From: Natroniella sulfidigena
Lineage (GTDB): Bacteria > Bacillota > Halanaerobiia > Halobacteroidales > Halobacteroidaceae
Assembly (NCBI RefSeq): GCF_023223645.1
Contig: NZ_JALKBY010000001.1
Location: forward strand, 62,001 to 126,000
Length of the DNA stretch: 64,000 nt
Direction: 5' to 3'
The number at the start of each line of letters is the position of its first letter. Position 1 is the stretch's first letter. Shown here piece by piece: positions 12,811 to 41,539 of this stretch. The translations under genes were made by a program, and so were the position numbers. Below the pieces are notes generated by a model. The model had not been told where the DNA came from, made no database searches, and was given only the letters and a program-made list of their open reading frames with translations.

Positions 12811-12826
12811 AGGGTGGTAAAATTAA

Positions 12827-12976: not shown

Positions 12977-13018
12977 ATTTTAAATGTTGATTGTGTGAAC
13001 TAAGGAAGGGGTGAAATT

Positions 13019-15314: not shown

Positions 15315-16703
15315 ATGGAATTAGCTTTATTAGTTGATATTGGGAGTACATATACTAAAGCTACCGTCTTTAATTTGACAGAGCTTAGTTTAAAAGCGAC
15401 GGTAAAAGCATTTACTACGATTAAAGAAGGGATAGATCAGGGTTTAAAAGAGGTTTTTGATAAGTTAACTGAACAGGGAGTTGAACTTGAAGAGATCGAC
15501 CATAAGTTAGCTTGTAGCAGTGCAGCAGGTGGTTTGAAGATGGTAGCAGTAGGATTGGTACCTGAACTGACTGCGGAAGCTGCTAAACGGGCTGCTTTGG
15601 GAGCAGGGGCCAAAGTTGCTGATGTTTATTCATATGAGCTAACAGCAGATGAGATAGAGGAGATTATTGGAGCTGAACCAGATGTGATATTGTTGGCTGG
15701 AGGAACTGATGGAGGGAATCAAGATATAATTTTAGAGAATGCTAAACGGTTAGCCGAATCTGAATTGGCTGCTCCAGTGATAGTAGCAGGCAATAAAGTA
15801 GTGGCTAAGGAGGTTGAAGAGACCTTAGTGGCTGGAAGAAAAGAGGTTTATCTGACCGATAATGTAATGCCTAAGTTAGAAGAGTTGAATATTGAGCCGG
15901 CTCGTCAAAAGATTCGGGAGGTATTTTTAGAACAGATTATTTATGCTAAAGGGTTAGATCAGGTTGAAGGCTATTTAGAAGGGGTAATCATGCCGACACC
16001 TTCTGCAGTGATGAAAGCAGCAGAGTTGATTGCTGAAGGTACTGCCCATGAAGAAGGATTAGGAGAGTTGATGATTGTCGATATTGGAGGGGCTACCACT
16101 GATATTCATTCAGCGGCTAAGGGCCAACCAACTAAAGGAGGAGTCAACTTAAGAGGATTAGAAGAGCCTTATGTTAAGCGGACTGTTGAAGGGGATTTAG
16201 GGATGCGTTATAGTGCTTCATCTTTAATGGAGAGTGTTGGAGAGGAAGAGGTATTAAGTTTTGTTGAAGAGGAGTTAAAAGATCAGTTATTGGCTTATAT
16301 AGATAAGATTGGAGTAGAGGTTGATTATGTACCTACTGAACAAGAAGAAAAAGAATTTGATTTAGCACTTGCCAAGGCTGCTACTAATGCTGCAATTAAT
16401 AGACACGTGGGACGGATTGAGACGGTCTATAGTCCTTTTGGTCAGCAATATGTTCAGTATGGTAAGGATTTAACCAAGTTAGATTTGATAATTGGGACTG
16501 GTGGGGTAGTGGTTCATAGTGAGAAGCCGGCTGAAATTTTGGAAGAGGGATTATTTAATGAGGAAGAACCACAGATTTTGGCCCCGTTGGAACCTAAGTT
16601 GATGTTAGACCAAGATTATATCTTATCAGCGATTGGATTGCTAGCTGAGATTAAACCAAAAGAAGCTTTACAGTTATCTAAAAATTATTTAACAGAGGTT
16701 TAA
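15315..16703 (+). CDS. glmL: Glutamate mutase reactivating/accessory protein MutL (GlmL)
   Basis: A 462-residue ASKHA-fold ATPase-like protein of the MutL/GlmL family. It has an N-terminal phosphate loop VDIGSTYTKATVF, a middle LAGGTDGGN, a second loop VDIGGATTDIHS (about residue 255) and a late GTGG motif. In Clostridium the homologous gene accompanies glutamate mutase and is thought to protect or reactivate the B12 enzyme. Here it stands about 14 kb upstream of glmS and glmE instead of between them. ATG 15315 follows AGAGGGGTGG. The assignment to glutamate mutase rather than another mutase rests on the presence of glmS/glmE in the same island. Confidence 0.88.
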   Translation: MELALLVDIGSTYTKATVFNLTELSLKATVKAFTTIKEGIDQGLKEVFDKLTEQGVELEEIDHKLACSSAAGGLKMVAVGLVPELTAEAAKRAALGAGAKVADVYSYELTADEIEEIIGAEPDVILLAGGTDGGNQDIILENAKRLAESELAAPVIVAGNKVVAKEVEETLVAGRKEVYLTDNVMPKLEELNIEPARQKIREVFLEQIIYAKGLDQVEGYLEGVIMPTPSAVMKAAELIAEGTAHEEGLGELMIVDIGGATTDIHSAAKGQPTKGGVNLRGLEEPYVKRTVEGDLGMRYSASSLMESVGEEEVLSFVEEELKDQLLAYIDKIGVEVDYVPTEQEEKEFDLALAKAATNAAINRHVGRIETVYSPFGQQYVQYGKDLTKLDLIIGTGGVVVHSEKPAEILEEGLFNEEEPQILAPLEPKLMLDQDYILSAIGLLAEIKPKEALQLSKNYLTEV

Positions 16704-17842: not shown

Positions 17843-17928
17843 TAAATTACAACATTCTGATAGAATAGGATATAAAAATTAATTGAGCTAATTGATTTTT
17901 AATTAAATAATTGAAGGGGGATTATAAA

Positions 17929-19953
17929 ATGGAATTTGATGTTTCTAAAGCTATGAAATTTACTTTGTCTGATGAATTGCCAGAAATGCCTGAATTTGAA
18001 GAGGGAATTCGTAGGGCACCTAAAAGGGAACTTAATTTAAATCAAGATGAGATGAAAGTTGCTTTAAAGAATGCTTTAAGGTATATCCCACCTAAGTTGC
18101 ATCACAAGTTGGCTCCGGAATTTATGGAGGAGTTATTGACGCACGGAAGAATTTATGGTTATCGATATCGTCCTAGTGGAAATATTAAGGCTAAGCCTAT
18201 TGATGAATATGAAGGAAGAACGACAGAAGGTAAGGCATTACAATTAATGATCGATAATAATTTGGATTTTGATATTGCACTTTATCCTTATGAGCTAGTG
18301 ACATACGGTGAGTCTGGTCAGGTATGCCAAAACTGGATGCAGTATAGATTGATTATGAAATACTTGCAGGAGATGACTGAGGATCAGACTTTAGTAGTTC
18401 AATCTGGTCATCCATTGGGTTTATTCCCATCTAAACCGGATGCTCCACGGGTAATATCTACTAATGGCTTAATGGTAGGAATGTTCGATAATGATGAAGC
18501 ATTCAATAAAGCAGCAGCTATGGGAGTTGCTAATTATGGACAGATGACTGCTGGTGGTTGGATGTATATTGGCCCGCAGGGAATAGTACATGGTACTTAT
18601 ATTACATTACTTAATGCAGGTCGGAAGTTTTTAGGAAATGACAAAGATGAAGACTTAGCTGGTCAGTTCTATATTACTTCTGGTTTGGGTGGTATGAGTG
18701 GAGCTCAAGCTAAAGCAATAGAGATTGCTGGAGGAGTTGGAGTGATCGCTGAAGTTGATATGTCTAGAATCAAGACACGACATGAACAAGGTTGGTTAAG
18801 TGAGTTTACGGATGATTTAGATGAGATTTTTGACTGGGTAGCAGAATATCAGGAAAAAGGCGAAGCAGTCTCAATTGCTTATCATGGTAATGTAGTTGAC
18901 TTATTAGAGTATGTTGTTGAAAATAATATTAAGGTAGACTTATTATCTGATCAGACTTCTTGCCATGCTGTTTATTCAGGTGGCTATCACCCAGTAGGAT
19001 ATAATTTTGAAGAAGGTAGAGAGTTATTGAATACTGATCCTGCTAAGTTTAGAGAAGAGGTAGATCAGACATTAAGAAAGCATTATGGTTTCATTGAAGA
19101 GTTGGTAGATCGAGGTTCTTACTTCTTTGATTATGGTAATAGCTTTATGAAGGCTGTTTATGATGCTGGGGTCAAAGAGATAGCTAAAAATGAAGCAGAT
19201 CCAAGCCAAGGATTTATCTTCCCATCTTATGTAGAAGATATAATGGGGCCAATCTGTTTTGATTATGGCTATGGGCCATTTCGTTGGGTATGCTTAAGTG
19301 GTAAGGATGAAGACTTAAGAAAGACTGATGAAGCTGCTAAAAGCTGTATTGATCCAGACAGAAGAGCACAAGATTATGATAATTATCAGTGGATTAATGA
19401 TGCTGAAGAGAATGATCTGGTAGTAGGTTCAAAAGCTAGAATCTTGTATGCTGATGGTCAAGGACGGGTTGAGATTGCACTTAAGTTTAATGAATTGGTT
19501 CGTAAAGGTGAGATTGGCCCGGTGATGCTAGGACGTGATCATCATGATGTTAGTGGAACGGATTCTCCATTTAGAGAAACAGCTAATATTAAGGATGGTA
19601 GTAATGTAATGGCTGAGATGTCTGTGCAGTGTTTTGCTGGAAACTGTGCTCGAGGAATGACTTTAGCTGTAGAGAGTAATGGTGGTGGAGTTGGTATTGG
19701 TAAATCATTCAATGGTGGTTTTGGTTTAGTACTTGATGGAAGTAAGAAGGTTGATGAGATTATCAAATCAGCTTTAGATTGGGATGTTCACGGCGGAGTT
19801 GCTAGAAGAGCTTGGGCTAGAAACGAACATGCAATTGAAACTATGCAAGATTGGAATCAAAGAAATGAAGGTAGAGGTCATGTAACAATTCCTTATCGAC
19901 CAGAAGAAGGATTGGTTGAGGGTATCGTTGCTGATTATTTAGATAAAGAGTAA
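17929..19953 (+). CDS. hutU: Urocanate hydratase
   Basis: Urocanase adds water to urocanate to give imidazolonepropionate, using tightly bound NAD as an electrophile. At 674 residues this is the long form, closer in size to the animal enzyme than to the roughly 555-residue proteobacterial form. Recognisable stretches include MTAGGWMYIGPQGIVHGT, TSGLGGMSGAQ around residues 245-255, and MLGRDHHDVSGTDSP and SNGGGVGIGKSFNGG near the end. ATG 17929 follows AAGGGGG; the upstream in-frame ATG or alternative would read through it. It heads the hutU-fchA-ftcD-hutI genes and has the SARP-type promoter. Confidence 0.96.
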   Translation: MEFDVSKAMKFTLSDELPEMPEFEEGIRRAPKRELNLNQDEMKVALKNALRYIPPKLHHKLAPEFMEELLTHGRIYGYRYRPSGNIKAKPIDEYEGRTTEGKALQLMIDNNLDFDIALYPYELVTYGESGQVCQNWMQYRLIMKYLQEMTEDQTLVVQSGHPLGLFPSKPDAPRVISTNGLMVGMFDNDEAFNKAAAMGVANYGQMTAGGWMYIGPQGIVHGTYITLLNAGRKFLGNDKDEDLAGQFYITSGLGGMSGAQAKAIEIAGGVGVIAEVDMSRIKTRHEQGWLSEFTDDLDEIFDWVAEYQEKGEAVSIAYHGNVVDLLEYVVENNIKVDLLSDQTSCHAVYSGGYHPVGYNFEEGRELLNTDPAKFREEVDQTLRKHYGFIEELVDRGSYFFDYGNSFMKAVYDAGVKEIAKNEADPSQGFIFPSYVEDIMGPICFDYGYGPFRWVCLSGKDEDLRKTDEAAKSCIDPDRRAQDYDNYQWINDAEENDLVVGSKARILYADGQGRVEIALKFNELVRKGEIGPVMLGRDHHDVSGTDSPFRETANIKDGSNVMAEMSVQCFAGNCARGMTLAVESNGGGVGIGKSFNGGFGLVLDGSKKVDEIIKSALDWDVHGGVARRAWARNEHAIETMQDWNQRNEGRGHVTIPYRPEEGLVEGIVADYLDKE

Positions 19954-20134: not shown

Positions 20135-20737
20135 ATGAGTTTTTCTGATTATACTTTAAATGAATTTGTAGAAGAATTAGCTAGCAAATCATCTACGCCA
20201 GGTGGAGGAAGTACTGCGGGATTAGGTGGAGCTTTAGCCTCTGCGTTAGCTTTGATGGTGATTAGGTTGACTAAGGATTCTGAGATAGAGCAATTTACTA
20301 CTGAGTTAGAAGATCTAAAATCCGAAGCATTAAGGTTGATTGATGAAGATTCTGAGAGCTTCGATAAGGTGATGGCTGCTTTTAGATTACCTAAGGAGAC
20401 TGAAGCAGAGCAAGAAGAGCGGAGTAAGCAGATTCAAGAAGCATTAAAGGGAGCTAGTATTACACCACTTAATACAATGAAATTAGGTCTCAAGGTCTTA
20501 GAGATTGCCAGGGAGGTAGCTACGGAAGGAAATCCTAATGCAGCTTCTGATATAGGAGTAGCTGGATTGATGGCTCTAAGTACGGTTAAAGGTGGTAGCT
20601 ATAATGTTTTAATCAATGCTGAGTCGTTAAAAGATGAAAAAGTTGCTACAGAGTTAAAAGATGAAGCTAGTGAGATAATTTCTAAGTCAGAACGATTAGC
20701 TGCTGAGATTGAAGAGATTGTTGAGAGTAAGATTTAA
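20135..20737 (+). CDS. fchA: Formimidoyl-THF cyclodeaminase / methenyl-THF cyclohydrolase
   Basis: A 200-residue helical protein of the cyclodeaminase/cyclohydrolase family. It has the N-terminal STPGGGSTAGLGGALASAL motif and a conserved SDIGVAGLMAL segment. In this setting it should convert 5-formimino-THF to methenyl-THF and ammonia after FtcD, so that the one-carbon unit of histidine enters the folate pool. In animals this activity is fused to FtcD; here the two are separate neighbouring genes. ATG 20135 follows AAAGGGGGAG. Confidence 0.9.
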   Translation: MSFSDYTLNEFVEELASKSSTPGGGSTAGLGGALASALALMVIRLTKDSEIEQFTTELEDLKSEALRLIDEDSESFDKVMAAFRLPKETEAEQEERSKQIQEALKGASITPLNTMKLGLKVLEIAREVATEGNPNAASDIGVAGLMALSTVKGGSYNVLINAESLKDEKVATELKDEASEIISKSERLAAEIEEIVESKI

Positions 20738-20835: not shown

Positions 20836-20853
20836 TCTAAAGGAGTGTTAATA

Positions 20854-21756
20854 ATGAGTCAGATATTAGAATGTATTCCTAACTTCAGTGAAGGAAGAGA
20901 TGAAGAAAAGATAGAGAAGATTGTAGAACCATTTAAGCAGACTGATGGGGTTAAGTTACTGGACTATTCAGCGGATAAAGATCATAATCGACTTGTAGTT
21001 ACGATGATTGGAAGTCCAGCTGGTTTGAAGAGATCTATGTTAGAGGCAATGGAAATAGCTATTGATCTGATCGATATGAATGAGCATACAGGAGAGCATC
21101 CAAGAATGGGAGCAGTAGATGTAGTACCATTTACTCCAGTTCGGAATGTAAGCATGGAAGAAGCTGTAGAGATATCAAAAGAGGTAGCTCAAGAGGCTGC
21201 TGAAAAGTTTGATCTTCCTATCTATTTCTATGAAGATGCTGCGACAAGTCCTGAACGAAAGAATTTAGCTGACATTCGACGGGGTGAATATGAAGCGATG
21301 GCTGAGAAGGTACAACAACCAGAATGGAAGCCAGATGTTGGCCCGGCTAAAGTTCACCCAACTGCAGGAGCTACCGTGATAGGAGCTCGGATGCCGTTAG
21401 TAGCTTATAATGTCAATCTTGATACAGATGATTTGGAACTTGCAAATAATATTGCTCGCAAGATTCGTCACTCTGGTGGAGGTTTGAGGTATTGTAAGGC
21501 TATCGGTATTGATTTGAGTGAGAGAGGTATTGTTCAGGTGTCTATGAATTTAACAAATTATACTAAAACTTCACTGTATCAAGCATTTGAAATGATCAAA
21601 TTTGAAGCTAAAAGATATGGTGTCAATATTATCGGTAGTGAGCTAATTGGGTTATTACCTGCTCAAGCATTATTTGATGTAGCAGAATATTATTTAGGAG
21701 TTGAAGACTTCTCTCCAGAACAGATAATGGAAAATAGATTATTGGAGGATCTATAA
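20854..21756 (+). CDS. ftcD: Glutamate formimidoyltransferase
   Basis: A 300-residue protein with only the formiminotransferase part of FtcD. It transfers the formimino group of formiminoglutamate to THF, releasing glutamate. The opening ILECIPNFSEGRD, the catalytic-site text EHPRMGAVDVVPFTP and RHSGGGLRYCKAIG are clear. ATG 20854 lies behind AAAGGAGTG, and the ATG at 20854 is preferred to TTG-type codons upstream in the repeat. Its stop codon overlaps the hutI start (TAATG), indicating coupled translation. Confidence 0.95.
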   Translation: MSQILECIPNFSEGRDEEKIEKIVEPFKQTDGVKLLDYSADKDHNRLVVTMIGSPAGLKRSMLEAMEIAIDLIDMNEHTGEHPRMGAVDVVPFTPVRNVSMEEAVEISKEVAQEAAEKFDLPIYFYEDAATSPERKNLADIRRGEYEAMAEKVQQPEWKPDVGPAKVHPTAGATVIGARMPLVAYNVNLDTDDLELANNIARKIRHSGGGLRYCKAIGIDLSERGIVQVSMNLTNYTKTSLYQAFEMIKFEAKRYGVNIIGSELIGLLPAQALFDVAEYYLGVEDFSPEQIMENRLLEDL

Positions 21757-23003
21757 TGAAGAATGTAGTGGTCAAGAATGCTGGAGAACTAATTACCTGT
21801 CAGGGCCAAGCTCCTAAGACTGGTTCTGAGATGAATGAACTAGGGATTATTACTGATGGTGCAGTAGTAATTAAAGGTGGTCTGATTACTCAAGTAGGTA
21901 AGACAGATGAGATTTTAAAAAATATTAATATAGAAGAATTTGAAGTTATTGATGCTGCTGGGAAACCTGTGTTACCAGGGTTTATTGATTCTCACACTCA
22001 TTTTGTATTTGGGGGTTATAGAGCAGATGAGTATAGTTGGAGATTGCAGGGAGTACCTTATACTGAAATTATGGAACGAGGCGGAGGGATTATCAACTCT
22101 GTAGCAGGTACTCGAGAGGCTTCTTTTGAAGAGTTAAAAGAGAGTGCTTGGAAGAGATTAGACTCTATGCTTTCCTTTGGAGTAACTACTACTGAAGGAA
22201 AGAGTGGTTATGGTCTTGAGCTAGAGACTGAATTAAAGCAGTTAAGGGTAATGAAAGAATTACAAGAGGAACATAAGGTAGATATTAGCCCTACTTTTAT
22301 GGGTGCCCATGCTATTCCTTCTGAATATGAAGGGCGGTCTGGAGAATTCATAGATTATTTGATAGAAGAAGTTATGCCTCTAGCAGTTGAAGAAGGTGGA
22401 GCAGAATTTTGTGATATTTTCTGTGATCAGGGAGTATTTACAGTAGATGAAGCTCGTAAACTTTTATTAAAAGGGCAAGAGTTAGGATTGAAGGCAAAGA
22501 TTCATGCTGATGAAATTGCTCAAGTTGGAGGAGCAGAATTGGCAGCAGAGCTAGGAGCAGTCTCAGCTGATCATTTACTTAAAGCTTCTGATGAAGGAAT
22601 AAAGTTGATGGCTGAAGAGGGTGTAATAGGTACTTTGCTACCGATTACTGCTTTTAGTCTTAAAGAGCCTTATGCTCGGGGGAGATATATGATCGATAAT
22701 GGGCTGCCAGTAGCTTTGGCTACAGACTTTAATCCTGGTAGCTGTTATTCAGAATCAATTCCACTGCTAATTGCTCTTTCTACATTACAGATGGAATTGA
22801 CTTTAGAGGAAGTAATAACAGCCTTAACTATTAATGCAGCAGCTGCTATTGATAGAGATGCTAAGATAGGTAGTATTGAGGTAGGAAAAGCAGGGGATTT
22901 AGTAATTCTTGATGCTCCTTCTTATACTCATTTGGCATATCATATCGGAGTTAATATTGTAGATAAGGTTATTAAGAATGGTCAGTTGGTAGTGAACGGT
23001 TAA
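21756..23003 (+). CDS. hutI: Imidazolonepropionase
   Basis: A 415-residue amidohydrolase that opens the imidazolone ring to give N-formimino-glutamate. Metal site residues are seen in DSHTHFVFGG (HxH, near residue 79), HADEIAQVGGAELA (His), ADHLLKASDEG (His) and ATDFNPGSCYSES (Asp). The Tyr/Arg-rich GGYRADEYSWR stretch binds the substrate carboxylate in the family. It begins within the ftcD stop codon and ends the operon at a strong terminator. Confidence 0.96.
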   Translation: MKNVVVKNAGELITCQGQAPKTGSEMNELGIITDGAVVIKGGLITQVGKTDEILKNINIEEFEVIDAAGKPVLPGFIDSHTHFVFGGYRADEYSWRLQGVPYTEIMERGGGIINSVAGTREASFEELKESAWKRLDSMLSFGVTTTEGKSGYGLELETELKQLRVMKELQEEHKVDISPTFMGAHAIPSEYEGRSGEFIDYLIEEVMPLAVEEGGAEFCDIFCDQGVFTVDEARKLLLKGQELGLKAKIHADEIAQVGGAELAAELGAVSADHLLKASDEGIKLMAEEGVIGTLLPITAFSLKEPYARGRYMIDNGLPVALATDFNPGSCYSESIPLLIALSTLQMELTLEEVITALTINAAAAIDRDAKIGSIEVGKAGDLVILDAPSYTHLAYHIGVNIVDKVIKNGQLVVNG

Positions 23004-28030: not shown

Positions 28031-29560
28031 ATGAATCCTATTTTAATTGATGGTAATAGTTTAACTTTAGAAGATGTAATTAAGGTTGCTAGAGAAGGAG
28101 TAAAGGTCGAACTAACAGATGATGCTGTCAAGAAAGTGAAGGAAGCTAGAGCAGTAGTCGATCATTTCGTTGAACAAGAAGAGGTTGTTTATGGAATTAC
28201 TACTGGCTTTGGAGAACTCAGTAATGTTTATATATCTAAAGATAAGACTGAAGATTTACAGAAGAATTTAATTATTAGCCATTCATGTGCAGTTGGTGAA
28301 GCATTTGAAGAAGAAGTAGCTCGAGCAGTAATGCTTCTAAGGGCCAACGCTCTTGCTAAGGGAGTATCAGGGATTAGATTAAAGACTTTAAATACATTAA
28401 TTGAGATGCTTAATCAAGGGGTACATCCTGTGATTCCTCAACAGGGTTCTTTAGGTGCTAGTGGAGATTTGGCTCCATTATCTCATATGGTATTGGTTAT
28501 GTTTGGTGAAGGAGAAGCATTTTATCAAGGTGAAAGAATCTCTGGAAAAGAAGCAATGGAAAAGGCTGGTATAGAGCCAGTTCAGCTTAAAGCTAAAGAA
28601 GGATTGGCCTTGATTAATGGAACTCAGATTATGACTGCTGTAGGAGCATTGACCGTTTATGATGCTATTAACTTAGCTAAGATAGCAGAGATTTCTTCAG
28701 CTTTAACAGTCGAAGCATTGAATGGAATTACTGATGCGTTTGATGAAAAGGTTCATCAAGCTAGACCACATAAACATCAGATTAATTGTGCTAAAAACTT
28801 ATTGAAGTTGACAGAAGGTAGCGAATCTACAACTAGACAAGGGGAAGTAAGAGTTCAAGATGCATATACCTTAAGATGTCTACCACAGATTCATAGTGCT
28901 AGTAAAGATGCTATTGAATATGTCAAAGAGAAGGTTGAGGTTGAAATCAATTCTGCAACCGATAACCCTTTGATCTTTGCTGAAGAGAATCAAGTTATCT
29001 CTGGTGGTAACTTCCACGGACAGCCGATGGCTTTACCGCTTGATTTTTTAGGGATGGCTTTAGCAGAATTAGCTAATGTTGCAGAAAGAAGGATAGAGCG
29101 GCTTGTAAATCCAACCTTAAGTGGTTTGCCACCATTTTTAATCGATGATGGTGGGGTTAACTCTGGCTTTATGATTACTCAATATTCAGCAGCATCATTG
29201 GTCTCTGAAAATAAGGTGCTGGCCCATCCAGCTAGTGTTGATTCGATTCCATCTTCAGCCAATAAAGAGGATCATGTAAGTATGGGAACTACTGCTGCCA
29301 GACAGACCAAGCAGATTTTAGATAATGCGAAAAATGTCTTAGCAATTGAATTGATGGCAGCAGCTCAAGCAATAGATTTAAGAATTGAAGCTGAGCAGTT
29401 AGGAAAAGGAACCCAAGTTGCTTACAAAAAAATTAGAGAAAGTATAGATAAATTGACTGAAGATAGAATCATGTATCTAGATATTAACCAATCTGCTTCT
29501 TTAATTGAAGAAAATGTTATAGTTGAAGCTGTAGAAGAAGCAGTAGGTCAATTAGATTAA
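28031..29560 (+). CDS. hutH: Histidine ammonia-lyase
   Basis: This 509-residue enzyme removes ammonia from histidine to make urocanate. The MIO prosthetic group should form from Ala143-Ser144-Gly145 within GSLGASGDLAPLSH. YGITTGFGEL near residue 54 (catalytic Tyr), SATDNPLIF and SSANKEDHVSMG are also typical. The length is standard. ATG 28031 follows TAAGGAG. A gap of 224 bases separates it from the transporter; no SARP-type pair is seen in that gap, so it may be read from the transporter promoter or its own. Confidence 0.96.
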   Translation: MNPILIDGNSLTLEDVIKVAREGVKVELTDDAVKKVKEARAVVDHFVEQEEVVYGITTGFGELSNVYISKDKTEDLQKNLIISHSCAVGEAFEEEVARAVMLLRANALAKGVSGIRLKTLNTLIEMLNQGVHPVIPQQGSLGASGDLAPLSHMVLVMFGEGEAFYQGERISGKEAMEKAGIEPVQLKAKEGLALINGTQIMTAVGALTVYDAINLAKIAEISSALTVEALNGITDAFDEKVHQARPHKHQINCAKNLLKLTEGSESTTRQGEVRVQDAYTLRCLPQIHSASKDAIEYVKEKVEVEINSATDNPLIFAEENQVISGGNFHGQPMALPLDFLGMALAELANVAERRIERLVNPTLSGLPPFLIDDGGVNSGFMITQYSAASLVSENKVLAHPASVDSIPSSANKEDHVSMGTTAARQTKQILDNAKNVLAIELMAAAQAIDLRIEAEQLGKGTQVAYKKIRESIDKLTEDRIMYLDINQSASLIEENVIVEAVEEAVGQLD

Positions 29561-30456: not shown

Positions 30457-30480
30457 ATTAGATTAGAGGTGGGAGAGTCT

Positions 30481-30921
30481 ATGGTAGAAAAGAAGACGGT
30501 TGTAATGGGGGTTATTGGTTCAGATGTTCATGCAGTAGGCAATAGAATTTTAGAAGAAGCGTTTACAAAAGCAGGCTTTGATGTTGTCAATATTGGGGTG
30601 TTGGCCCCGCAAGAAGAGTTTATTAATGCTGCTATTGAAACAGATGCAGATGCTATTTTGGTTTCTTCACTGTATGGTCATGGAGAACTTGATTGCAAAG
30701 GGTTTAGAGCTAAATGTGTTGAAACCGGCTTGGATGATATTATATTATATGTTGGTGGTAATTTAGTAGTTGGTAAGCAGGAGTGGGAACCAACTGAGAA
30801 AAAGTTTTTAGAGATGGGATTTGATAGGGTCTATCCTCCAGGTACATTACCTGAAGAGCCAATTGCTGATTTGAGGCAGGATTTAGGAATAAATAATGAA
30901 ACTAATCAGGAGGGAAAGTAG
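30481..30921 (+). CDS. glmS: Methylaspartate (glutamate) mutase subunit S
   Basis: A 146-residue B12-binding subunit of glutamate mutase. The base-off cobalamin motif DxHxxG is present as Asp15, His17 and Gly20 in [19 protein letters not shown] and GGNLVVGK further fit subunit S of glutamate mutase rather than the methylmalonyl-CoA enzyme. With GlmE it rearranges L-glutamate to 3-methyl-L-aspartate. ATG 30481 is preferred; GGTGGGA lies seven bases before it, while GTG 30469 lies within that ribosome site. The glmE start follows one base after the stop. Confidence 0.94.
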
Positions 30922-30922
30922 A

Positions 30923-32371
30923 ATGGAACTAAAAAATCAGAAGTGGGACTTAGAAAAATTCAACCAAATTAGAGCAGAAGTTTTAGGGCAATGGCCGACA
31001 GGAGACGCAGTAGATTTAGATGAAGCTATTGCTTATCATAAAAATTTAGCACCAGAGAAGGTGATGGCTAATAAATTAGCAACAGCTAAAAAAGAAGGGG
31101 TTTCTTTAATTCAGCCGCGAGCAGGAGTAGCTTTGATTGATCAACATATTGAGCTATTACAGTTTTTAAGGGAAGAAGGAAGAGCGGATGTATTACCGAC
31201 TACGATCGATAGTTATACTAGACAGAATAATTATCAAGAAGCAGCGGATGGGATTGAGGAGAGCCGTAATGAAGGTAGATCATTATTAAATGGATTTCCA
31301 GCGGTTAATCATGGAGTTGACGGTTGTAGACAGCTAGTTGAAGCTTTAGATGCTCCATTGCAGGTTAGACATGGTACTCCAGATGCTAGATTATTAGCTG
31401 AGATTACTTTAGCAGGTGGATTTACTGATTATGAAGGGGGAGGAATCTCTTATAATATCCCTTATGCTAAGGATGTCTCAATAGAACAGACATTATATGA
31501 TTGGCAGTATGTTGATCGTTTGATTGGACTTTATGAAGAGCGGGGAGTCAAGATCAATCGTGAGCCGTTTGGCCCGTTGACTGGAACTTTAGTACCACCT
31601 TCTGTTTCTCATAGTGTAGCAATTATAGAGGCATTATTGGCCGTTGAACAGGGGGTTAAGAATCTAACTTTAGGATATGGTCAGTGTGGTAATTTGATTC
31701 AGGATGTTGCTGCGATTAAGACTTTAGAGGAATTGGCGGAAGAATACTTAGCTGATTATGATGATATAATGTTGACTACAGTCTTTCATCAATGGATGGG
31801 TGGTTTCCCTCAAGATGAAGCACAAGCTTTTGGAGTTATTTCGTGGGGAGCTGCTACAGCTGCTTTAGCTAAAGCAACTAAGGTTATTGTTAAGACACCA
31901 CATGAAGCGTTAGGGATTCCAACTAAAGAAGCAAATGCCCAAGGTTTAAGAACTACTAAGCAGTTGATCAATATGCTTAAAGATCAAGAGTTTGCTTCTA
32001 ATGGCAGATTAGAAAAAGAAAAAGAGATGATTAAAAAAGAGACTAGACAGATTTTAGATCGGGTCTTTGAGTTAGGTGATGGTGATATAGCTCAAGGTAC
32101 GGTTAAAGCTTTTACATCAGGGATTATAGATATACCTTTTGCACCAAGTAGGTATAATGCTGGTAATATCTTGCCTGCTAGAGATAATGAAGGAGCAGTA
32201 AGATATTTAAATCCAGGTAATCTACCTTTCTCAGATGAAGTATTAGAATTTAATCAAGCTAAATTAGAAGAGCGTGGAAAAGAGGAGTTACGAGAGCCTA
32301 ACTTCCAGATGGTAATTGATGATATTTATGCTATCGGTAAGGGTAAACTAGTAGGAAGACCGCGGGAGTAA
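30923..32371 (+). CDS. glmE: Methylaspartate (glutamate) mutase subunit E
   Basis: The 482-residue catalytic TIM-barrel subunit of glutamate mutase, which binds glutamate and forms the radical with the adenosylcobalamin held by GlmS. Its length matches the Clostridium enzyme. Recognisable text includes [34 protein letters not shown] and [12 protein letters not shown] near residue 150, which includes arginines that bind the substrate carboxylates in the family. ATG 30923 follows AGGAGGG and gives a one-base gap from glmS, so the two are coupled. Confidence 0.95.
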
Positions 32372-32490
32372 TAGTTGACGGTTGACAGTTAACGGTTGAC
32401 GGTTAAGAGCAAAATTTTGTTTTATTTGGTCTTGATTTTGAGGTTTTAAAAGGGTTTAACTGTACACTGTAAACTGTACACTGTAAACTA
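32372..32490. repeat. Heptamer inverted-repeat element, copy 4 (short)
   Basis: Left units GTTGACG, GTTGACA, GTTAACG, GTTGACG and GTTAAGA (32374-32408) and right units ACTGTAC and ACTGTAA repeated (32459-32488), with a shorter middle than other copies. It lies between glmE and mal. Confidence 0.8.
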
Positions 32491-32588
32491 GAACGAGAGT
32501 GCAGAAAAATTTAAAGTTATGCTAGAAATTGAGATGATGGAATTAAATTCAGTTAAAAGTAGTGAATAGTAAACAGGGGGGGATTAAG

Positions 32589-33830
32589 ATGAAAATTAAG
32601 CAAGTAATTACTTCTCCAGGAATGACAGGATTTTATTTTGATGATCAGCAAGCGATTAAGGATGGTGCTGAAAATGATGAATTCTCTTATGTAGGTCAAG
32701 CTAAGACTGAAGGATTTAGTTCAATTCGTCAAGCTGGAGAATCAATTTCAGTAATGCTTATTTTAGAAGATGATCAAGTAGCTTATGGTGATTGTGCGGC
32801 AGTTCAGTATTCTGGAGCTGGAGGAAGAGATCCATTATTTTTGGCCCAGGAGTTTATTCCAGTGATTGAAGAAGAGATTGCCCCTCATTTAATTGGAAGA
32901 GAGTTAGATTCTTTTAAGGAATTAGCAGAGGAGATCGAGCAATTTTCTAGAGATGGAGAGAGGTTACACACAGCAATTCGCTATGGTATCACTCAAGCAC
33001 TATTGGATGCAGTGGCTAAAGCTAAGCGAAAGACGATGACAGAGATAGTAGTTGAAGAATATGATTTAGAATTGATTGCTAAGCCTGTACCGATCTTTAC
33101 CCAGACTGGTGATGATAGATATGTTAACGTTGATAAGATGGTGATTAAGCATACAGATGTAATGCCTCATGCGTTGATCAATAATGTTGAAGAGAAGCTA
33201 GGTGAAGACGGGGAGAAGTTATTAGAGTATGTTAGCTGGTTAAAGAAGAGAGTTAGGAAGTTACGACCGAGCTCAGACTATCTACCTATCTTTCATATAG
33301 ATGTCTATGGTACGATCGGTCTAGCATTCGATAATGATCCGCAGCAGATGGCAGATTATTTAGAAGAGTTGGCCCAGGCTGCCAAGCCACATACTCTCAG
33401 AATTGAAGGGCCAATGGATTCTGGTAGCAGAGAACAACAGATTAAGGATATGAAGGCTTTAAGGGAAGAAGTCCAAAACAGAGAGATAGCAGTCGAATTG
33501 GTGGCTGATGAATGGTGTAATACCCTTGAAGATATCAAGATGTTTGTTGATCAAGAGGCAGCAGATGTTGTCCAGATTAAGACACCTGATCTAGGTGGAA
33601 TTAATAATACAATAGAAGCGGTATTATATTGTAAAAAGAATGATGTAGGAGCTTATCAGGGCGGAACCTGTAATGAAACGGATCGTTCTGCTCAAGTCTG
33701 TGTTAATTTAGCCTTGGCAACCAGACCTGATCAGATGTTAGCTAAACCAGGAATGGGTGTTGATGAAGGATTTATGATCGTTAAAAATGAGATGGAGCGA
33801 GTCTTGGCTTTACTTAAAACTAGATCTTAA
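32589..33830 (+). CDS. mal: Methylaspartate ammonia-lyase
   Basis: A 413-residue enolase-superfamily enzyme that eliminates ammonia from 3-methylaspartate to give mesaconate. The opening MKIKQVITSPGMTGFYFDDQ is typical; the barrel shows metal-site residues in FHIDVYGTIG and ELVADEWCN, and the catalytic lysine is expected in VVQIKTPDLGG (about residue 330). GTCNETDRSAQV near residue 360 is conserved. ATG 32589 follows a GGGGGG ribosome site. It directly extends the GlmES step. Confidence 0.96.
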   Translation: MKIKQVITSPGMTGFYFDDQQAIKDGAENDEFSYVGQAKTEGFSSIRQAGESISVMLILEDDQVAYGDCAAVQYSGAGGRDPLFLAQEFIPVIEEEIAPHLIGRELDSFKELAEEIEQFSRDGERLHTAIRYGITQALLDAVAKAKRKTMTEIVVEEYDLELIAKPVPIFTQTGDDRYVNVDKMVIKHTDVMPHALINNVEEKLGEDGEKLLEYVSWLKKRVRKLRPSSDYLPIFHIDVYGTIGLAFDNDPQQMADYLEELAQAAKPHTLRIEGPMDSGSREQQIKDMKALREEVQNREIAVELVADEWCNTLEDIKMFVDQEAADVVQIKTPDLGGINNTIEAVLYCKKNDVGAYQGGTCNETDRSAQVCVNLALATRPDQMLAKPGMGVDEGFMIVKNEMERVLALLKTRS

Positions 33831-34123
33831 TTACAATATTGTGTCACTTTCGATATGTTATTAATATGAGGAAAGTTTCTCGTTCGGAAAGATTTTTTCT
33901 GAGTTTCTAAGACTCACCTTCAATCAAACAAGAGCAAGTTAATTTTAAAATAGGAAAATTAACTAATTCATGCTCTAATTTGATTTTCGGTTCATCAAGA
34001 AACTAAACGAAAAAATCTAGATGTCACTGCGAAACATTCCTCATGATAGTTTGGATTTGTTTTTATGGTTTTAATGATTTTAACTGTCAACTGTACACTG
34101 TACACTGTAAACTGTCAACTGAT
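33831..34123. repeat. Large palindromic element plus heptamers, copy 2
   Basis: This is almost the same sequence as 7752-8030. The palindromic core (33865-34047) differs from the first copy at only about five positions by eye. The right heptamer array has one more ACTGTAC unit than copy 1, and the linker has a 9-base insertion. It lies between mal and the AtuA-like gene and accounts for a spurious upstream extension of that gene. Confidence 0.85.
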
Positions 34124-34145
34124 AAAGAAAGGTGGGATGAATAAT

Positions 34146-35519
34146 ATGAAAGAAATTAGAGTTCTATCCCCAACAGCAATTTTGGGTTATGGATTTCCAG
34201 TTGAATCCTTTGAACGTGGATTAGATAAAGAACCAGATCTGATTGCAGTCGATGCTGGTTCAAGTGACCCTGGCCCTTATTACTTAGGGGCAGGAGTTTC
34301 TTTTACAGATAAGACCGCTGTTAAAAGGGATCTTAAATTAATGATCAAGGCTGGACAAGAAAAGGATATTCCTGTAATTGTAGGAACTGCTGGAGGTGCA
34401 GGAGCTGCTTCTCATTTGGAGTGGTGTACTGAGATTGTAGAGGAGATTGCTCAAGAGGAAGATTTAAGTTTTAAATTAGCGACTATTCAAGCTGAACAGG
34501 AGCAAGAGTTTATCTTAGAGAAGTTTCAAGCAGGACAGATAAGTCCGTTATATCCTGCTCCAGAGCTGACTGAGAAAGAGCTAAAAAGTAGTACTAGAAT
34601 TGTAGGTCAGATGGGAGTAGAGCCTTTTATTGAAGCTTTAGATCAAGAAGCAGAGGTAATTATTGCTGGAAGGGCCTATGATCCGACGGTCTTTGCTAGC
34701 TTCTGTATTAGAGAAGGTTTGCCAGCAGGTTTGGCACTACATATGGGTAAAATTATGGAGTGTGCATCGATAGCAGCAAATCCTGGTAGTGGTAGTGATG
34801 CTATGTTCGGTATCTTGCGTGATGACCATTTTCTGTTAGAACCGTTAAATCCGAAGCGAAGATGTACTACTACTTCAGTAGCAGCTCATACCCTATATGA
34901 AAAGACCAATCCAACTAAACTTCCAGGACCAGGTGGGGTTATTGATTTATCAGAAACTGAATTTGAACAGTATGATGAGCGGACTGTCAAAGTGAGCGGA
35001 AGTAAGTTTGTTGCTGCTGATGAGTATACCATCAAGTTAGAAGGAGCTAAACAGGTTGGTTATCGAACGGTATCGATTGCAGGGACTAGAGATCCAATTA
35101 TGATTGAGCAGCTAGATCATATTATTGAAGTAGTTAAAGAAACAGTTGAAGATAACTTTGTTGACTTAGCTGCTGATGATTATCATTTGCTCTTTAGGAT
35201 TTATGGTCGAGATGGAGTAATGGGTAACCTCGAGCCAGAGCAAGAGGTATCAGGTCATGAGGTAGGAATTATTATTGAGGTTGTAGCTAAGAGCCAAGAA
35301 TTAGCCAATACAATCTGTAGTTTTGCTCGTTCAACGATGTTGCACTATGGTTATCCAGGTCGGGTAGCTACTGCAGGGAATCTAGCTTTTCCTTATTCTC
35401 CATCAGATTTGAAAGCAGGAGAGGTTTATGAATTTAATGTACATCATTTGATTAAGGTCGATGATCCGACAGAATTATTTCCAGTTCAGATAGAAGAGGT
35501 AGGTGAGACAATTGGCTGA
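34146..35519 (+). CDS. AtuA-like (DUF1446) protein
   Basis: A 457-residue protein of the acyclic terpene utilisation AtuA-like family (DUF1446). Glycine-rich text such as DAGSSDPGPYYLGAG near the start, GTAGGAGAASH and IIAGRAYDP is typical. The biochemical role of this family is not settled. It is followed by a DUF4387 protein, with a 17-base overlap or nearly so, a pairing known elsewhere, and both sit between mal and the mesaconase-type hydratase, so a role in the methylaspartate route is inferred. ATG 34146 has GGTGGG nine bases before it; longer starts run into the repeat. Confidence 0.82.
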   Translation: MKEIRVLSPTAILGYGFPVESFERGLDKEPDLIAVDAGSSDPGPYYLGAGVSFTDKTAVKRDLKLMIKAGQEKDIPVIVGTAGGAGAASHLEWCTEIVEEIAQEEDLSFKLATIQAEQEQEFILEKFQAGQISPLYPAPELTEKELKSSTRIVGQMGVEPFIEALDQEAEVIIAGRAYDPTVFASFCIREGLPAGLALHMGKIMECASIAANPGSGSDAMFGILRDDHFLLEPLNPKRRCTTTSVAAHTLYEKTNPTKLPGPGGVIDLSETEFEQYDERTVKVSGSKFVAADEYTIKLEGAKQVGYRTVSIAGTRDPIMIEQLDHIIEVVKETVEDNFVDLAADDYHLLFRIYGRDGVMGNLEPEQEVSGHEVGIIIEVVAKSQELANTICSFARSTMLHYGYPGRVATAGNLAFPYSPSDLKAGEVYEFNVHHLIKVDDPTELFPVQIEEVGETIG

Positions 35520-35838
35520 AGCTAAAAATATCAGAGAATTGGTTGATGTTGTGCGGAGTAAGAATGCTGGCCCGTATGAATTGACTTTTGATCTGATCTT
35601 TAAGAGTTTTGAGATTTATGAACAGGTAAAGAAGTCAGGAGTGATCAATGAAGAGTTGATTGCTCAACTGTATGGTATAGATTTAGAGCAAGTGATTTCA
35701 GTAATTAATTATGATCCAGCTAAAGCGATCAAGGCAACAATTGTTCGACCTTACTCTTCAGGAGCAATTGGAGAGCGGGATGTTTATGGAGCTCAACAAC
35801 ATGCACCTTTGTTGAATATAGAAGTGCCAATTCAATAA
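35512..35838 (+). CDS. DUF4387 family protein
   Basis: A protein of about 108 residues matching the small DUF4387 family: KNIRELVDVVRSKNAGPYELTFDL at its start is characteristic (shown here as the core SKNAGPYELTFD), and IVRPYSSGAIGERDVYGAQQHAP closes it. DUF4387 is often encoded next to, or fused with, AtuA-like proteins, so the two probably act as subunits of one enzyme. The start is TTG 35512 behind AGGTAGGTGA; GTG 35503 is an alternative. A terminator follows. Confidence 0.8.
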   Translation: MAEAKNIRELVDVVRSKNAGPYELTFDLIFKSFEIYEQVKKSGVINEELIAQLYGIDLEQVISVINYDPAKAIKATIVRPYSSGAIGERDVYGAQQHAPLLNIEVPIQ

Positions 35839-35886: not shown

Positions 35887-35990
35887 GCTTAAGTTTAAGG
35901 TTGAGTTTAAGTTTAAGTCTAAGCCAACCGTTAAAAACATAAGGGTTTAGGTTTTACTTGAACTTAGACTTAGCTTTAAACTTAGCATTA
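35887..35990. repeat. Hexamer inverted-repeat element
   Basis: Left units AGTTTA, AGGTTG, AGTTTA, AGTTTA and AGTCTA (35891-35920), a middle ending GGGTTTAGGTTTTA, and right units CTTGAA, CTTAGA, CTTAGC and CTTAGC (35958-35988). It separates the DUF4387 gene from the sigma-54 activator. Confidence 0.8.
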
Positions 35991-36114: not shown

Positions 36115-38178
36115 ATGGAACAGAAGTTAGCAATAATTACAATGAGTCAAGCAACTAATCAATTATTCAAAGAGCAATTAGAAGATGTTTTAAAAAACAG
36201 AATAGAGGTAAGAGGATATTCACTTGATGATTCAATAGTTGAGCAGGTTGATGCTGATCTGGTTTTGACGACTAAATCCTTAGGTGCTGAAATAGAGAAT
36301 TATATAGCAGAAGATAGTGAAGTCATCTTTGCTAGAAGGGCTTTGGACTTATCGACACTAGAAAAGCTGATTAAATTACCTACTGCTAAAAAGGCTTTAT
36401 TGATCAATAATACTAAATTAGCAGTTTTAGAGACGCATTCATTATTACAAGAAGTTGGAATTGATCATTTAGAATTGATACCCTTTTATCCAGGTTGCGA
36501 TAAAGAAGAAGTTAAGGAAGTTGAATTAGCAATTAATTTAGGTGAAGAAAAGTATATTCCTGATTCGATAACTAAAGTAATTAATATTGGAAGTCGAATT
36601 CTTGATTTAACTACCATTGTTGAAATTTTAATTAAACTTGATTTATTAGGGGAGAGAGCAAATCTTTTAATATCTGAGCAAGTAAGGCAATTAGTTGAGC
36701 TTAGTAAGCGCTTAAATAGAAAGATTATAGATATGGAACGGGCCAACAAAAAGTTAGATGCGGTGCTTAATCATGTCCATGATGGGATAATATATATTAA
36801 TGAAAATGAAGAAATAGAAGTCTTTAATCGTCGGGCTGAGGAGATTTTTGAGGTTAAAGCTGAGGAAATGTTGGGTCAAAAGATTGGAAATAAGATTGCT
36901 AATACCAATTTGAATCGTGTTTTGAAAAATGGTTTCAAAGAGATCAATGCATTACAAAATGTAGGAGATAAAAAGATAGTTACTACTAGAGTGCCCTTAA
37001 AAAGAGAGGAAGATATTATTGGAGCATTAGCAACTTTTAAGGATGTAACGGAAGTAAAAAAATTAGAAGAAGATCTGCGAAGAAAATTAAAGAATAAAGG
37101 TCATGTGGCCAAGTATAAATTTAGAGATATAATAGGGGAGAGTCGAGAGGTAAAGCAGGTGATTGAGAAAGCAAAGAAGTTGGCTAAAAGTAAATCAACT
37201 GTCTTATTGCAAGGGGAGAGTGGAACAGGAAAAGAGTTATTTGCGGGTGCGATTCATAACCACTCTCAACGGAGCAACAAACCTTTTGTAGCAATCAATT
37301 GTGCTGCATTGCCTGAAAATCTATTGGAAAGTGAGCTGTTTGGTTATGAAGAAGGGGCCTTTACTGGGGCCAAAAAAGGAGGGAAACCTGGGGTCTTTGA
37401 ACAAGCTCATACAGGGAGTATCTTTTTAGATGAAATAGGTGATATTCCGTTAAATATTCAAGCTAGGTTATTGAGAGTCTTACAGGAAAAAGAGGTCATG
37501 AGAATTGGTGCTACGCAAGTAATTCCGATTGATATTAGGATCTTAGCTGCTACCAATAAGGATTTAGAAGAGTTAGTAGCAGCCGGTGAATTTAGGGAAG
37601 ATCTTTATTATAGGTTGAATATTTTATCGTTACAGCTTCCTCCTTTACGGATGAGAAGAGAGGATATTCCAGTCTTGATCGATTATTTTTTAGATAAGTT
37701 TGCTAGAGAAGATTTAAGATTGAGCAAAGAAGCAATCAGTAGGTTATATAATTATGACTGGCAGGGTAATATCAGACAGTTAGAAAATTGTGTTGAATAT
37801 ATTACTCAAGTCTGTGAGAGTGAAGTGAAGCTAGCAGATCTACCATCATATTTAAGGCCTACTAATGGACAAGAAAAGCAACAGGATATCAGAGAGATAG
37901 AAGAGAAGTTAGATGAATTAGGCAAGATAGATCAGTATATTTTTATTTTGAATGAGTTATATTTAGCTAAGCAATTAGGGGAGAAGATAGGAAGAAGAGA
38001 GATTGCTAATAATGCTGAAGCCAATGAATTATACCTTTCGTCACAGATGGTTAGAAGCAGGTTGAAGAAGTTAGAAGAGTATGGGCTAGTCAGTATCGGT
38101 AGAGGTAGGCAAGGAACTGAAATTATTTCTAAAGGGATTAAATTTTTGAAGGCAATGACAAAGAAGGAGGTTAGATAA
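36115..38178 (+). CDS. Sigma-54 dependent transcriptional activator with PAS domain
   Basis: A 687-residue activator. The N-terminal 200 residues look like a sensory domain of the PrpR/phosphotransfer-free type, then a PAS domain (about 215-320), then the AAA+ module with Walker A GESGTGKE at about residue 367 and the GAFTGA loop ([11 protein letters not shown] at about 413) that contacts sigma-54. The C-terminus does not look like the usual Fis-type helix-turn-helix; it ends in a winged-helix-like [19 protein letters not shown]. It lies directly upstream of the hydratase genes, and a matching -24/-12 site lies before glmS. ATG 36115 follows GAGGTGG. Confidence 0.9.
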
Positions 38179-38180
38179 TA

Positions 38181-39023
38181 ATGGCTATTCATGTGGAGCA
38201 AGTAACAGAAGCAGTAGCTAAAATGTGTAAGGAAGCTAATTATATATTAGGAGCAGATATATTGGAGGGTTATCAAGAGGCTTTAGAGCGGGAAGAATCT
38301 GAGGTGGCTCGAGAGGTGTTAGAGACTTTGCTTGAGAATGCAGAGATTGCTAAAGAAGAGAAGATGCCTATCTGTCAGGATACAGGAATGGCAGTTATCT
38401 TTTTAGAGTTGGGTCAGGATGCTGAAATTGAAGGTGGAAGTTTGACTGAGGCAATTAATGAAGGGGTGCGGCAAGGTTATCAAGAGGGTTATTTACGTAA
38501 ATCAGTAGTGGCTGATCCTTTGGAACGCCAGAATACAGGAGATAATACGCCTGCGATAATTCATACTGAATTGGTGCCAGGAGATAAGATTAAGTTGACG
38601 GTAGCTCCTAAGGGCTTTGGTAGTGAGAATATGAGCCAGATTAAGATGTTAAAACCTGCTGATGGAGTAGAAGGGGTCAAAGATTTTGTACTTCAGGTCG
38701 TTGAGGAAGCAGGTTCTAATCCTTGTCCACCAATTGTAGTTGGAGTTGGAATTGGTGGTACTTTTGAAAAGGCAGCTTTATTGGCTAAAAAGGCGATAGT
38801 TAGACCAATTGGTCTTCATAATCAAAAAGAAGAGTTGGCCCAAGTAGAAGAGGAGTTATTGACTGAGATCAATCAATTAGGGATTGGCCCGCAAGGCTTT
38901 GGTGGAGCGACGACGGCTTTAGCAGTTAATATTAATGATTATCCGACCCATATTGCTGGTTTACCAGTGGCAGTTAATATTAATTGCCATGTAACTAGAC
39001 ATAAAGAAATTACTTTAGGTTAA
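38181..39023 (+). CDS. Fumarase-type hydratase alpha subunit (probable mesaconase)
   Basis: A 280-residue protein of the class I fumarate hydratase N-terminal (alpha) family. Three cysteine sites for the 4Fe-4S cluster are visible: [20 protein letters not shown] and INCHVTRH. These two-subunit hydratases act on fumarate, tartrate or mesaconate. Because it follows glmS-glmE-mal in the same island, hydration of mesaconate to citramalate is the likely reaction, although fumarase activity is common in such enzymes. The start is two bases after the regulator stop, with AGGAGG in the end of that gene. Confidence 0.85.
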
Positions 39024-39038
39024 AGGTGGTGTATAATA

Positions 39039-39578
39039 ATGGAAAAAATCAAATTGGAAATGCCAATAACTGAGGCTGAAATTAGAGAATTAAATGCTGG
39101 TGATAAGATAGCTTTATCTGGAGTACTTTATACAGCTCGAGATGCAGCCCATGCTAGGTTAGTAGATGCTTTAGAAAGAGGAGAGGAATTGCCGATGGAG
39201 TTAGAGGGCCAAGGGATTTATTATGTTGGCCCGTGCCCTGCTAAGCCAGGTCAAGTAATAGGCTCAGCCGGGCCAACGACCAGCTATCGGATGGACCCCT
39301 TTGCTCCACGTTTGATCAAGGAAGGTTTACGAGTTATGATCGGTAAGGGTGAAAGAAGCACAGAAGTAATTGAGACAATGAAAGAAGAGGGTGCTGTCTA
39401 TTTAGGAGCAATTGGTGGAGCAGCAGCTTTGATTGCTAAATGTATTAAGCAAGCTGAAGTAATTGCTTATGATGATTTGGGTACGGAAGCGGTAAGAAGG
39501 TTAGAGGTAGAAGATCTACCTTTGATCTGTGTAATAGATAGTAACGGTAATAATCTTTATCATAGAGCAGGTGAATGA
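39039..39578 (+). CDS. Fumarase-type hydratase beta subunit (probable mesaconase)
   Basis: A 179-residue protein of the fumarate hydratase C-terminal (beta) family. YYVGPCPAKPGQVIGSAGPTTS, RMDPFAPRL and KGERSTEVIE are characteristic, and GAVYLGAIGGAAALIAKCI closes the swivel domain. It would complete the active site of the alpha subunit. It begins 15 bases after alpha and its TGA overlaps the ATG of the following P-loop gene. Confidence 0.88.
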   Translation: MEKIKLEMPITEAEIRELNAGDKIALSGVLYTARDAAHARLVDALERGEELPMELEGQGIYYVGPCPAKPGQVIGSAGPTTSYRMDPFAPRLIKEGLRVMIGKGERSTEVIETMKEEGAVYLGAIGGAAALIAKCIKQAEVIAYDDLGTEAVRRLEVEDLPLICVIDSNGNNLYHRAGE

Positions 39579-40534: not shown

Positions 40535-40600
40535 AATTTAGGAGGAAAAAGTAAAAAATGATACTTTAATCTTAAAAATAGATGTTAAGGAGTGAAAAGA

Positions 40601-41539
40601 GTGAAGGTTATTGGAAGTAAAAAAGAGTTAACCCAAATATTAGAAGATAGTTTGAAGAATAATCAAAACTATTATAAACAAGGTGAGCTTCCAAATTATA
40701 TACCGACCTTAGCTAAAGCAGATCCTAAAGCAGTAGGGATAAGTATGGTCGATGTTGAAGGTGATTTTTATTCAGCAGGAGATTTTGAAACAAATTTTAC
40801 TATTCAAAGTGTCTCTAAGCCACTTGTTCTAATATTAGCAATTCTGGACAATGGCACAGAATTAGTCTTTGATAAAGTAGGAGTAGAACCTACAGGAGAC
40901 CCTTTCAACTCAATAATTAAATTGACTGGTTTTGCTAAACCATACAATCCAATGATTAATGCAGGAGCTATTGCTGTAACATCGATGATTAAAGGTAAAG
41001 ATAATGAGGAAAAATTTGATAGGATACTTAAATTCTTTAGGAGATTAGCTAAAAATGATGAATTAGAGCTAGATCAAGAGACTTATCTTTCTGAAAAAGA
41101 TACTGGAGATAGAAATAGATCCTTAGCCTATTATATGAGGGATCAAGATATAATCGAAGGAGATATAGAGGAGATAGTAGATTTATACTTTAAGCAATGT
41201 TCAATTAAAGTTAATTGTATAGATCTAGCTAATATGGCAGTTATCTTAGCCAATCAAGGAATAGATCCAGTAACTGAAGAAAGAATTATTCCCAAAAAGA
41301 TTGCAAGAATAGTTAGAACTTTAATGGCTACATGTGGCATGTATGATAAATCAGGTAGTTTTGCAATTGAGGTAGGTTTAGCTGCTAAGAGTGGAGTTGG
41401 AGGAGGAATAATGGCTGAGGTTCCAGAAAGGTTTGGAATAGGTGTTTATGGGCCAACATTAGATGACAAAGGAAATAGTATAGTAGGAATGAGGGTTTTA
41501 AAAGAGTTATCTGAGAAGTTAAACTTAAGTATTTTTTAA
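40601..41539 (+). CDS. glsA: Glutaminase
   Basis: A 312-residue serine-dependent glutaminase of the beta-lactamase-like fold that hydrolyses glutamine to glutamate and ammonia. The SxxK catalytic pair is Ser70-Val-Ser-Lys73 in QSVSKP. FAKPYNPMINAGAIAVTSM and SGVGGGIMAEVP, with conserved Asn, Tyr and Ser positions, are typical. GTG 40601 has AAGGAG at 40587-40592; the GTG at 40592 overlaps that site. It feeds glutamate to the mutase route and has its own transcription unit. Confidence 0.94.
   Translation: MKVIGSKKELTQILEDSLKNNQNYYKQGELPNYIPTLAKADPKAVGISMVDVEGDFYSAGDFETNFTIQSVSKPLVLILAILDNGTELVFDKVGVEPTGDPFNSIIKLTGFAKPYNPMINAGAIAVTSMIKGKDNEEKFDRILKFFRRLAKNDELELDQETYLSEKDTGDRNRSLAYYMRDQDIIEGDIEEIVDLYFKQCSIKVNCIDLANMAVILANQGIDPVTEERIIPKKIARIVRTLMATCGMYDKSGSFAIEVGLAAKSGVGGGIMAEVPERFGIGVYGPTLDDKGNSIVGMRVLKELSEKLNLSIF

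Follow-up and report, generated by a model that had tools for sequence, protein, structure and literature searches.

A gene pair of the AtuA and DUF4387 families as the probable two-subunit citramalate lyase of a methylaspartate cluster

Introduction

A counterpart of the locus analysed here is the methylaspartate gene cluster of E. coli O157:H7. Kronen and Berg reported that in Enterobacteriaceae and Dictyoglomus a DUF1446 gene follows downstream of mal; citrate lyase, isocitrate lyase and methylisocitrate lyase were tested and activity was not found, and the fate of citramalate was unclear (PMC4682846). In E. coli O157:H7 Sakai, the gene order is glmS-glmL-glmE-mal-A-B-transporter-fumD, where fumD encodes a fumarase and A and B are the counterparts of the gene pair discussed below. 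These two Sakai genes, cmlA and cmlB (positions 11934-13618 of neighbourhood L055), are misleadingly annotated, ECs_0760 as a 3-methylaspartate ammonia-lyase and ECs_0759 as an acyl-CoA synthetase. The pair was found in 1,084 of 5,426 complete E. coli genomes, with 1,080 of the matches covering at least 80% of the query.

A name for this pair comes from two entries in the PDB. The chains of 9ERQ and 9EVF are called Citramalate lyase subunit A (cmlA) and subunit B (cmlB), and 9EVF, released 2025-10-08, is titled “Citramalate lyase - ADP - pyruvate complex”. The Sakai A and B proteins matched the crystallised 9erq chains from end to end with few differences, indicating that the solved enzyme is of the enterobacterial type. 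A search of the available literature library covering 9ERQ/9EVF, DUF1446/DUF4387 and citramalate lyase since 2016 found no CmlAB paper, and the function of the reference CmlAB rests on the PDB names and titles. The AtuA protein of the terpene pathway has been tentatively assigned as an acetate-releasing lyase acting on 3-hydroxy-3-isohexenylglutaryl-CoA (PMC4847356, PMC9973270). The citramalate-cleaving enzyme has already been deposited by others; what is new here is the assignment of a distant gene pair to it, the pattern by which the pair replaces CitF, and the limits of the inference.

The probable cmlA-cmlB gene pair

The window, meaning the whole 64,000-nucleotide stretch of DNA that was analysed, had been predicted to carry an AtuA-like/DUF4387 pair at 34146-35838, and matches to PF07287 and PF14330 bear out both the pair and its coordinates. 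The first gene, cmlA (34146..35519, + strand), encodes a 457-aa protein of the AtuA family, the proposed large subunit of citramalate lyase, which matches PF07287 (AtuA) with an E-value of 4.7e-20 and 72.2 bits. While the longest mechanical open reading frame begins at 34065, the ATG at 34146 is the better start; a ribosome-binding-like sequence, AAAGGTGGG, lies at 34128-34136, and the stop is at 35519. The second gene, cmlB (35503..35838, + strand), encodes a DUF4387 protein, the proposed small subunit, which matches PF14330 (E 1.6e-40) and no other Pfam family. None of the NCBIfam models matches CmlA or CmlB.

The cmlB frame is open from a GTG at 35503, giving 111 aa, and a TTG at 35512 would give 108 aa. 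The TTG is preceded by AGGTGA and fits relatives that begin M-A-E-x-K-N-I-R-E-L, and is an equally good or better start. The start of cmlB overlaps the end of cmlA, which suggests that the two genes are translationally coupled. The adjacency of A and B is not due to chance: they lie side by side on the same strand in 104 neighbourhoods of at least 5 kb in which both genes are present, and B adjoins A in every neighbourhood of that size, the one exception being a short contig (L160).

The window also holds two kinds of repeat. A long imperfect inverted repeat (35890-35984), with 38-base arms that are 76% complementary, is found between cmlB and the gene for a sigma-54 activator. In addition, arrays with a 7-base period (AACTGTN) occur at 2755-2960, 7994-8027, 14104-14251, 19965-20107, 32371-32491 and 34082-34122, the last of these immediately upstream of cmlA. 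Several of the arrays consist of two inverted arms with approximately 50-170 bases between them. The window holds 27 matches with up to 2 mismatches, against 0.04 expected, and across the genome there are 70 exact matches to the pattern and 6 to the reversed pattern. The arrays are probably a dispersed intergenic element.

Genomic context

The assigned genes around cmlA and cmlB, all on the + strand, belong largely to the methylaspartate pathway and to routes that lead into it. Upstream are glmS (30469..30921; TIGR01501, NF002612) and glmE (30923..32371, with a mechanical open reading frame from 30896; TIGR01503), which encode glutamate mutase subunits S and E, and mal (32562..33830; TIGR01502, PF07476/PF05034), which encodes methylaspartate ammonia-lyase. 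Downstream are a sigma-54 dependent activator gene (36115..38178; PF00158 with PAS), the product of which is the likely regulator of the cluster, and genes for the alpha subunit (38181..39023; PF05681, NF004885) and the beta subunit (39039..39578; PF05683, NF005310) of a class I fumarase/mesaconase. We infer the mesaconase role of the alpha subunit from the cluster and from previous work (PMC4682846). The original prediction set the pair between mal and the hydratase genes, and it was right about glmS, glmE, mal and the two fumarase genes as neighbours, but the sigma-54 activator gene also intervenes.

The gene for the glutamate mutase accessory protein, glmL (15315..16703; NF040745, PF13941), lies approximately 14 kb upstream, beside the hut genes. 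In most relatives it lies between glmS and glmE, and Natroniella acetigena (L116) likewise has no glmL between these two genes. The A protein of N. acetigena is 92% identical to the window CmlA. This species uses glutamate, with acetate as the main product (PMC9476925).

Histidine and glutamine can feed the pathway, since the window contains hutH (28031..29560; TIGR01225), for histidine ammonia-lyase, hutU (17911..19953; TIGR01228), for urocanate hydratase, hutI (21756..23003; TIGR01224), for imidazolonepropionase, and genes for a glutamate formiminotransferase (20845..21756; PF07837, PF02971), for the cyclodeaminase part of a formiminotransferase-cyclodeaminase type protein (20135..20737; PF04961) and for a glutaminase (40592..41539; TIGR03814). 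Together with the hut genes, the window is predicted to encode a route from histidine through glutamate to pyruvate and acetate. A glutaminase gene is also part of the E. coli cluster (PMC4682846). A promoter scan of the cluster returned matches no more numerous than in shuffled sequence.

A P-loop protein with the motif GEGGAGKS is encoded at 39575-40477 and matched no Pfam or NCBIfam model. It recurs in 12 neighbourhoods with A and B, 11 of them mal-linked, and is a possible accessory protein of the methylaspartate pathway.

Sequence and structure match to citramalate lyase

Evidence for the function of the pair came from a search of solved structures, in which A and B each had exactly one strong relative, chains A and B of 9ERQ/9EVF. 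CmlA residues 4-452 matched 9erq_A/9evf_A with an E-value of 2.4e-163, and CmlB residues 10-108 matched 9erq_B/9evf_B with an E-value of 1.6e-27; identity to the solved protein is approximately 55% for A and 48-50% for B. Most invariant polar positions of A are common to E. coli A, the exceptions being C240 and D267. Invariant residues include R176, D179, H199, K202, E205, H248, K297, E299, R315 and D316 in A, and R18-S19-K20-N21, K77, R82, D93 and Q98-Q99 in B.

Structure models of CmlA and CmlB, built solely from window and genome-contig sequences, gave the same relationship. The predicted CmlA model (mean pLDDT 89.6) aligned to 9evf_A with TM scores of 0.94/0.95 and a Z-score of 49.2, and the predicted CmlB model (mean pLDDT 86.9) aligned to 9evf_B with TM scores of 0.86/0.91. 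Nothing else was close in the comparison of either model, the next matches being unrelated and partial. For CmlA, these cover approximately residues 304-427 with Z-scores of 7-9.5 and reflect a common ferredoxin-like alpha/beta arrangement rather than kinship; for CmlB, matches to TAL effectors were discounted as low-scoring and limited to approximately 30 residues.

These data argue strongly for identifying the pair as CmlAB, the two-subunit enzyme that cleaves citramalate and completes the methylaspartate route, and we hold this reading with high confidence. The homology, fold, clade, gene order and CitF replacement are computed, and the activity is taken from the deposited name of the homologue. 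Citramalate lyase had been noted as missing from the window; given the sequence and fold matches to 9ERQ/9EVF, the leading candidate for it is the pair itself. The suggestion of a step or shunt on C5 branched acids holds as far as the step is concerned, the substrate being a C5 branched acid of the methylaspartate pathway, but the pair would not form a shunt.

Phylogeny of the large subunit

A tree of 111 A proteins, made with a quick method without bootstrap and containing some long branches, placed the window A, the E. coli A and all 33 mal-linked proteins in one 44-member group (SH-aLRT 94). The other 11 members of this group are not next to mal, and several come from genomes with mal elsewhere. 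A second group, 43-52% identical, comprises 42 proteins, mostly from Proteobacteria, plus Synergistota and some Firmicutes. Its neighbours, as read from the sequences and not from profile matches, resemble MmgE/PrpD, aconitase, PrpF and tripartite tricarboxylate transporters. A third group, 35-40% identical, occurs in other contexts. Five A/B pairs (L120, L155, L122, L134 and L062) adjoin genes resembling tripartite tricarboxylate transporters and aconitase, with a PrpF-like gene in L122 and L134 and a CitF relative near the pair in L062. Judged by these neighbours, the five pairs are possibly lyases for other branched hydroxy acids.

The other branches bear on an alternative in which the window pair is a lyase from this family whose substrate is a neighbouring C5 or C6 hydroxy acid, such as an isomer of citramalate or methylmalate or the CoA esters, and not free (S)-citramalate. 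The different neighbours and unrelated contexts of those branches do imply that substrates probably differ within the family. However, the window protein groups with E. coli A among the mal-linked proteins, the products of the adjacent genes yield free (S)-citramalate, and the neighbours scanned included no CoA-transferase gene. We therefore consider this alternative improbable.

Distribution of the pair and of the classical lyase

Additional evidence for a citramalate lyase function came from a survey of 398 genomes of the phylum, in which true mal genes were defined by an E-value below 1e-30. There were 78 mal loci in 74 genomes; DUF4387 was present in 93 genomes, 61 of which had both (Fisher p 4e-35). 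DUF4387 lay within 10 kb of mal in 51 of the 78 loci, always downstream and on the same strand, mostly at a spacing of approximately 1.4-1.7 kb, which leaves room for cmlA. No other arrangement in the sample is as common as the mal-cmlA-cmlB order, which E. coli O157:H7 also has, so the pair is not the odd insertion it had been taken for. Nor do the data bear out that such pairs are absent from other mal clusters, or occur mainly with terpene pathways. DUF4387 genes away from mal account for 50 of the 101 matches in the sample. Since approximately half of the genes are not near mal, finding the pair is not enough to identify the pathway, and the family is not confined to a citramalate substrate.

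The survey also separates the pair from the classical CitDEF lyase. CitF (PF04223), the alpha subunit of that lyase, was found 1.3-1.7 kb downstream of mal in five other loci, and no locus had both CitF and DUF4387 (probability of no overlap 0.004); in this sample, CitF next to mal and DUF4387 next to mal are mutually exclusive. At the level of whole genomes, CitF was present in 8 of the 13 mal genomes that lack DUF4387, against 5 of the 61 that have it (p 8e-5). While the direction of the association is clear, these survey p-values overstate the case because related genomes are not independent.

This pattern weighs against the idea of the pair as an accessory or regulatory complex, with citramalate being cut by a CitDEF-type lyase or a citramalyl-CoA lyase encoded elsewhere in the genome. 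Such an arrangement has some precedent, in that the clusters of C. tetanomorphum and several other Clostridia hold a CitDEF-like lyase (PMC4682846). However, the window's own genome, which is 98.7% complete, has no match to CitF, and its only match to the CitE-type lyase family (PF03328) scores 22.3 bits, under the 25-bit cut-off. We regard an accessory role as very improbable. Hardly credible at all is the idea that a terpene-type (Atu) protein lies here by chance. The large subunit takes its name from AtuA in both Pfam and RefSeq, but CmlA lacks the fused C-terminal AtuA_ferredoxin domain, no atu genes were seen nearby, and the link to mal is repeated in 51 loci.

Proposed reaction and its wider meaning

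With the pair read as CmlAB, the cluster would encode a complete path from glutamate. GlmSEL would convert glutamate to 3-methylaspartate, Mal would convert 3-methylaspartate to mesaconate, and the class I fumarase subunits, acting as a mesaconase, would hydrate mesaconate to (S)-citramalate. CmlAB would then cleave (S)-citramalate, giving pyruvate together with an acetyl unit of two carbons. An acetate kinase gene is present in the genome, but its presence does not discriminate because most such anaerobes have one.

Because free acetate leaves poorly as a carbanion, the known lyases of this kind use acetate in the activated form of a thioester. The cmlA/cmlB pair includes no acyl carrier protein, and the title of the deposited complex names ADP and pyruvate. 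From these two observations we infer, with less certainty than the assignment itself, that CmlAB cleaves an acyl phosphate made with ATP. ATP would phosphorylate the CH2-COOH carboxylate of citramalate, the resulting acyl phosphate would split in a retro-aldol step at the tertiary carbon that bears the hydroxyl group, and pyruvate would be released with acetyl phosphate (or acetate). The ADP in the 9EVF crystal may instead be an additive or a stand-in for part of CoA.

A broader proposal unites CmlAB, AtuA and the other AtuA/DUF4387 pairs in a single superfamily of carbon-carbon lyases driven by nucleotides. The substrates would be tertiary beta-hydroxy acids, phosphorylated by ATP on the carboxylate at the acetate end. 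Breakdown of the acyl phosphate would then give acetyl phosphate together with a keto acid or a keto acyl-CoA; no acyl carrier protein would take part, and the leaving unit would carry no thioester. We put this forward as a tentative idea that is somewhat more apt to fail than to hold. If true, glutamate fermentation by the methylaspartate route makes acetyl phosphate directly. The link between CmlAB and AtuA is testable: in each of the assigned reactions, a tertiary beta-hydroxy acid loses a two-carbon unit.

For a second and very distant group of bacteria, the assignment of CmlAB itself would answer the 2015 puzzle of what becomes of citramalate in clusters of the O157:H7 type. It would also give a function to genes annotated as acyclic terpene utilisation or DUF4387 in many anaerobes of the phylum and in approximately a fifth of complete E. 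coli genomes.

Comparison with known systems

The classical acyl-carrier-protein lyase CitDEF, of the C. tetanomorphum type, catalyses the same net reaction at the same place in the pathway. However, CmlAB is unrelated to this citramalate/citrate lyase: the small subunit in the window matches DUF4387 only, and the genome is without CitF or a CitE-type lyase above the cut-off. (S)-Citramalyl-CoA lyase (Ccl) is a CitE-like (PF03328) enzyme. In itaconate degradation it breaks the citramalate skeleton down to pyruvate and a fragment of two carbons (PMC12290011), as proposed for CmlAB, but its substrate is a CoA ester, and the window's own genome has no PF03328 match above the cut-off.

AtuA is closer in family. 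It shares PF07287 with CmlA, together with core residues such as AGG 82-84, G175-R176, D179, E205-C206, Y251-E252 and K297, whereas H199, K202, H248, E299 and R315-D316 of CmlA are replaced; a shared core with replaced polar residues is what would be expected for one fold with different substrates. The AtuA substrate, like citramalate, has a -CH2-COOH group on a tertiary carbinol, and the two reactions may be read as the same kind of bond cleavage. One difference is that AtuA is a single chain of approximately 600 aa with a C-terminal AtuA_ferredoxin domain (PF23544), and genomes with AtuA proper have frames of approximately 600 aa, whereas the CmlA chain stops once the PF07287 region is complete and gave no PF23544 match. 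DUF4387 might be this AtuA domain split off as a separate subunit. Both begin with a similar RS-x-x-x-G stretch, which is not evidence of kinship; an hhalign comparison of DUF4387 with AtuA_ferredoxin gave a probability of 0.7%, with both alignments shallow.

The closest parallel is the crystallised CmlAB itself. The window pair comes from an anaerobe related to the haloalkaliphile Natroniella, its cluster is joined to histidine degradation with glmL displaced, and the sigma-54 activator stands in contrast to a putative LysR-type regulator in the E. coli cluster (PMC4682846). Nevertheless, both systems have two subunits of similar lengths and the same folds with near full-length homology, and in the window as in E. 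coli O157:H7 the adjacent genes, A then B, lie downstream of mal in a cluster with glutamate mutase and mesaconase.
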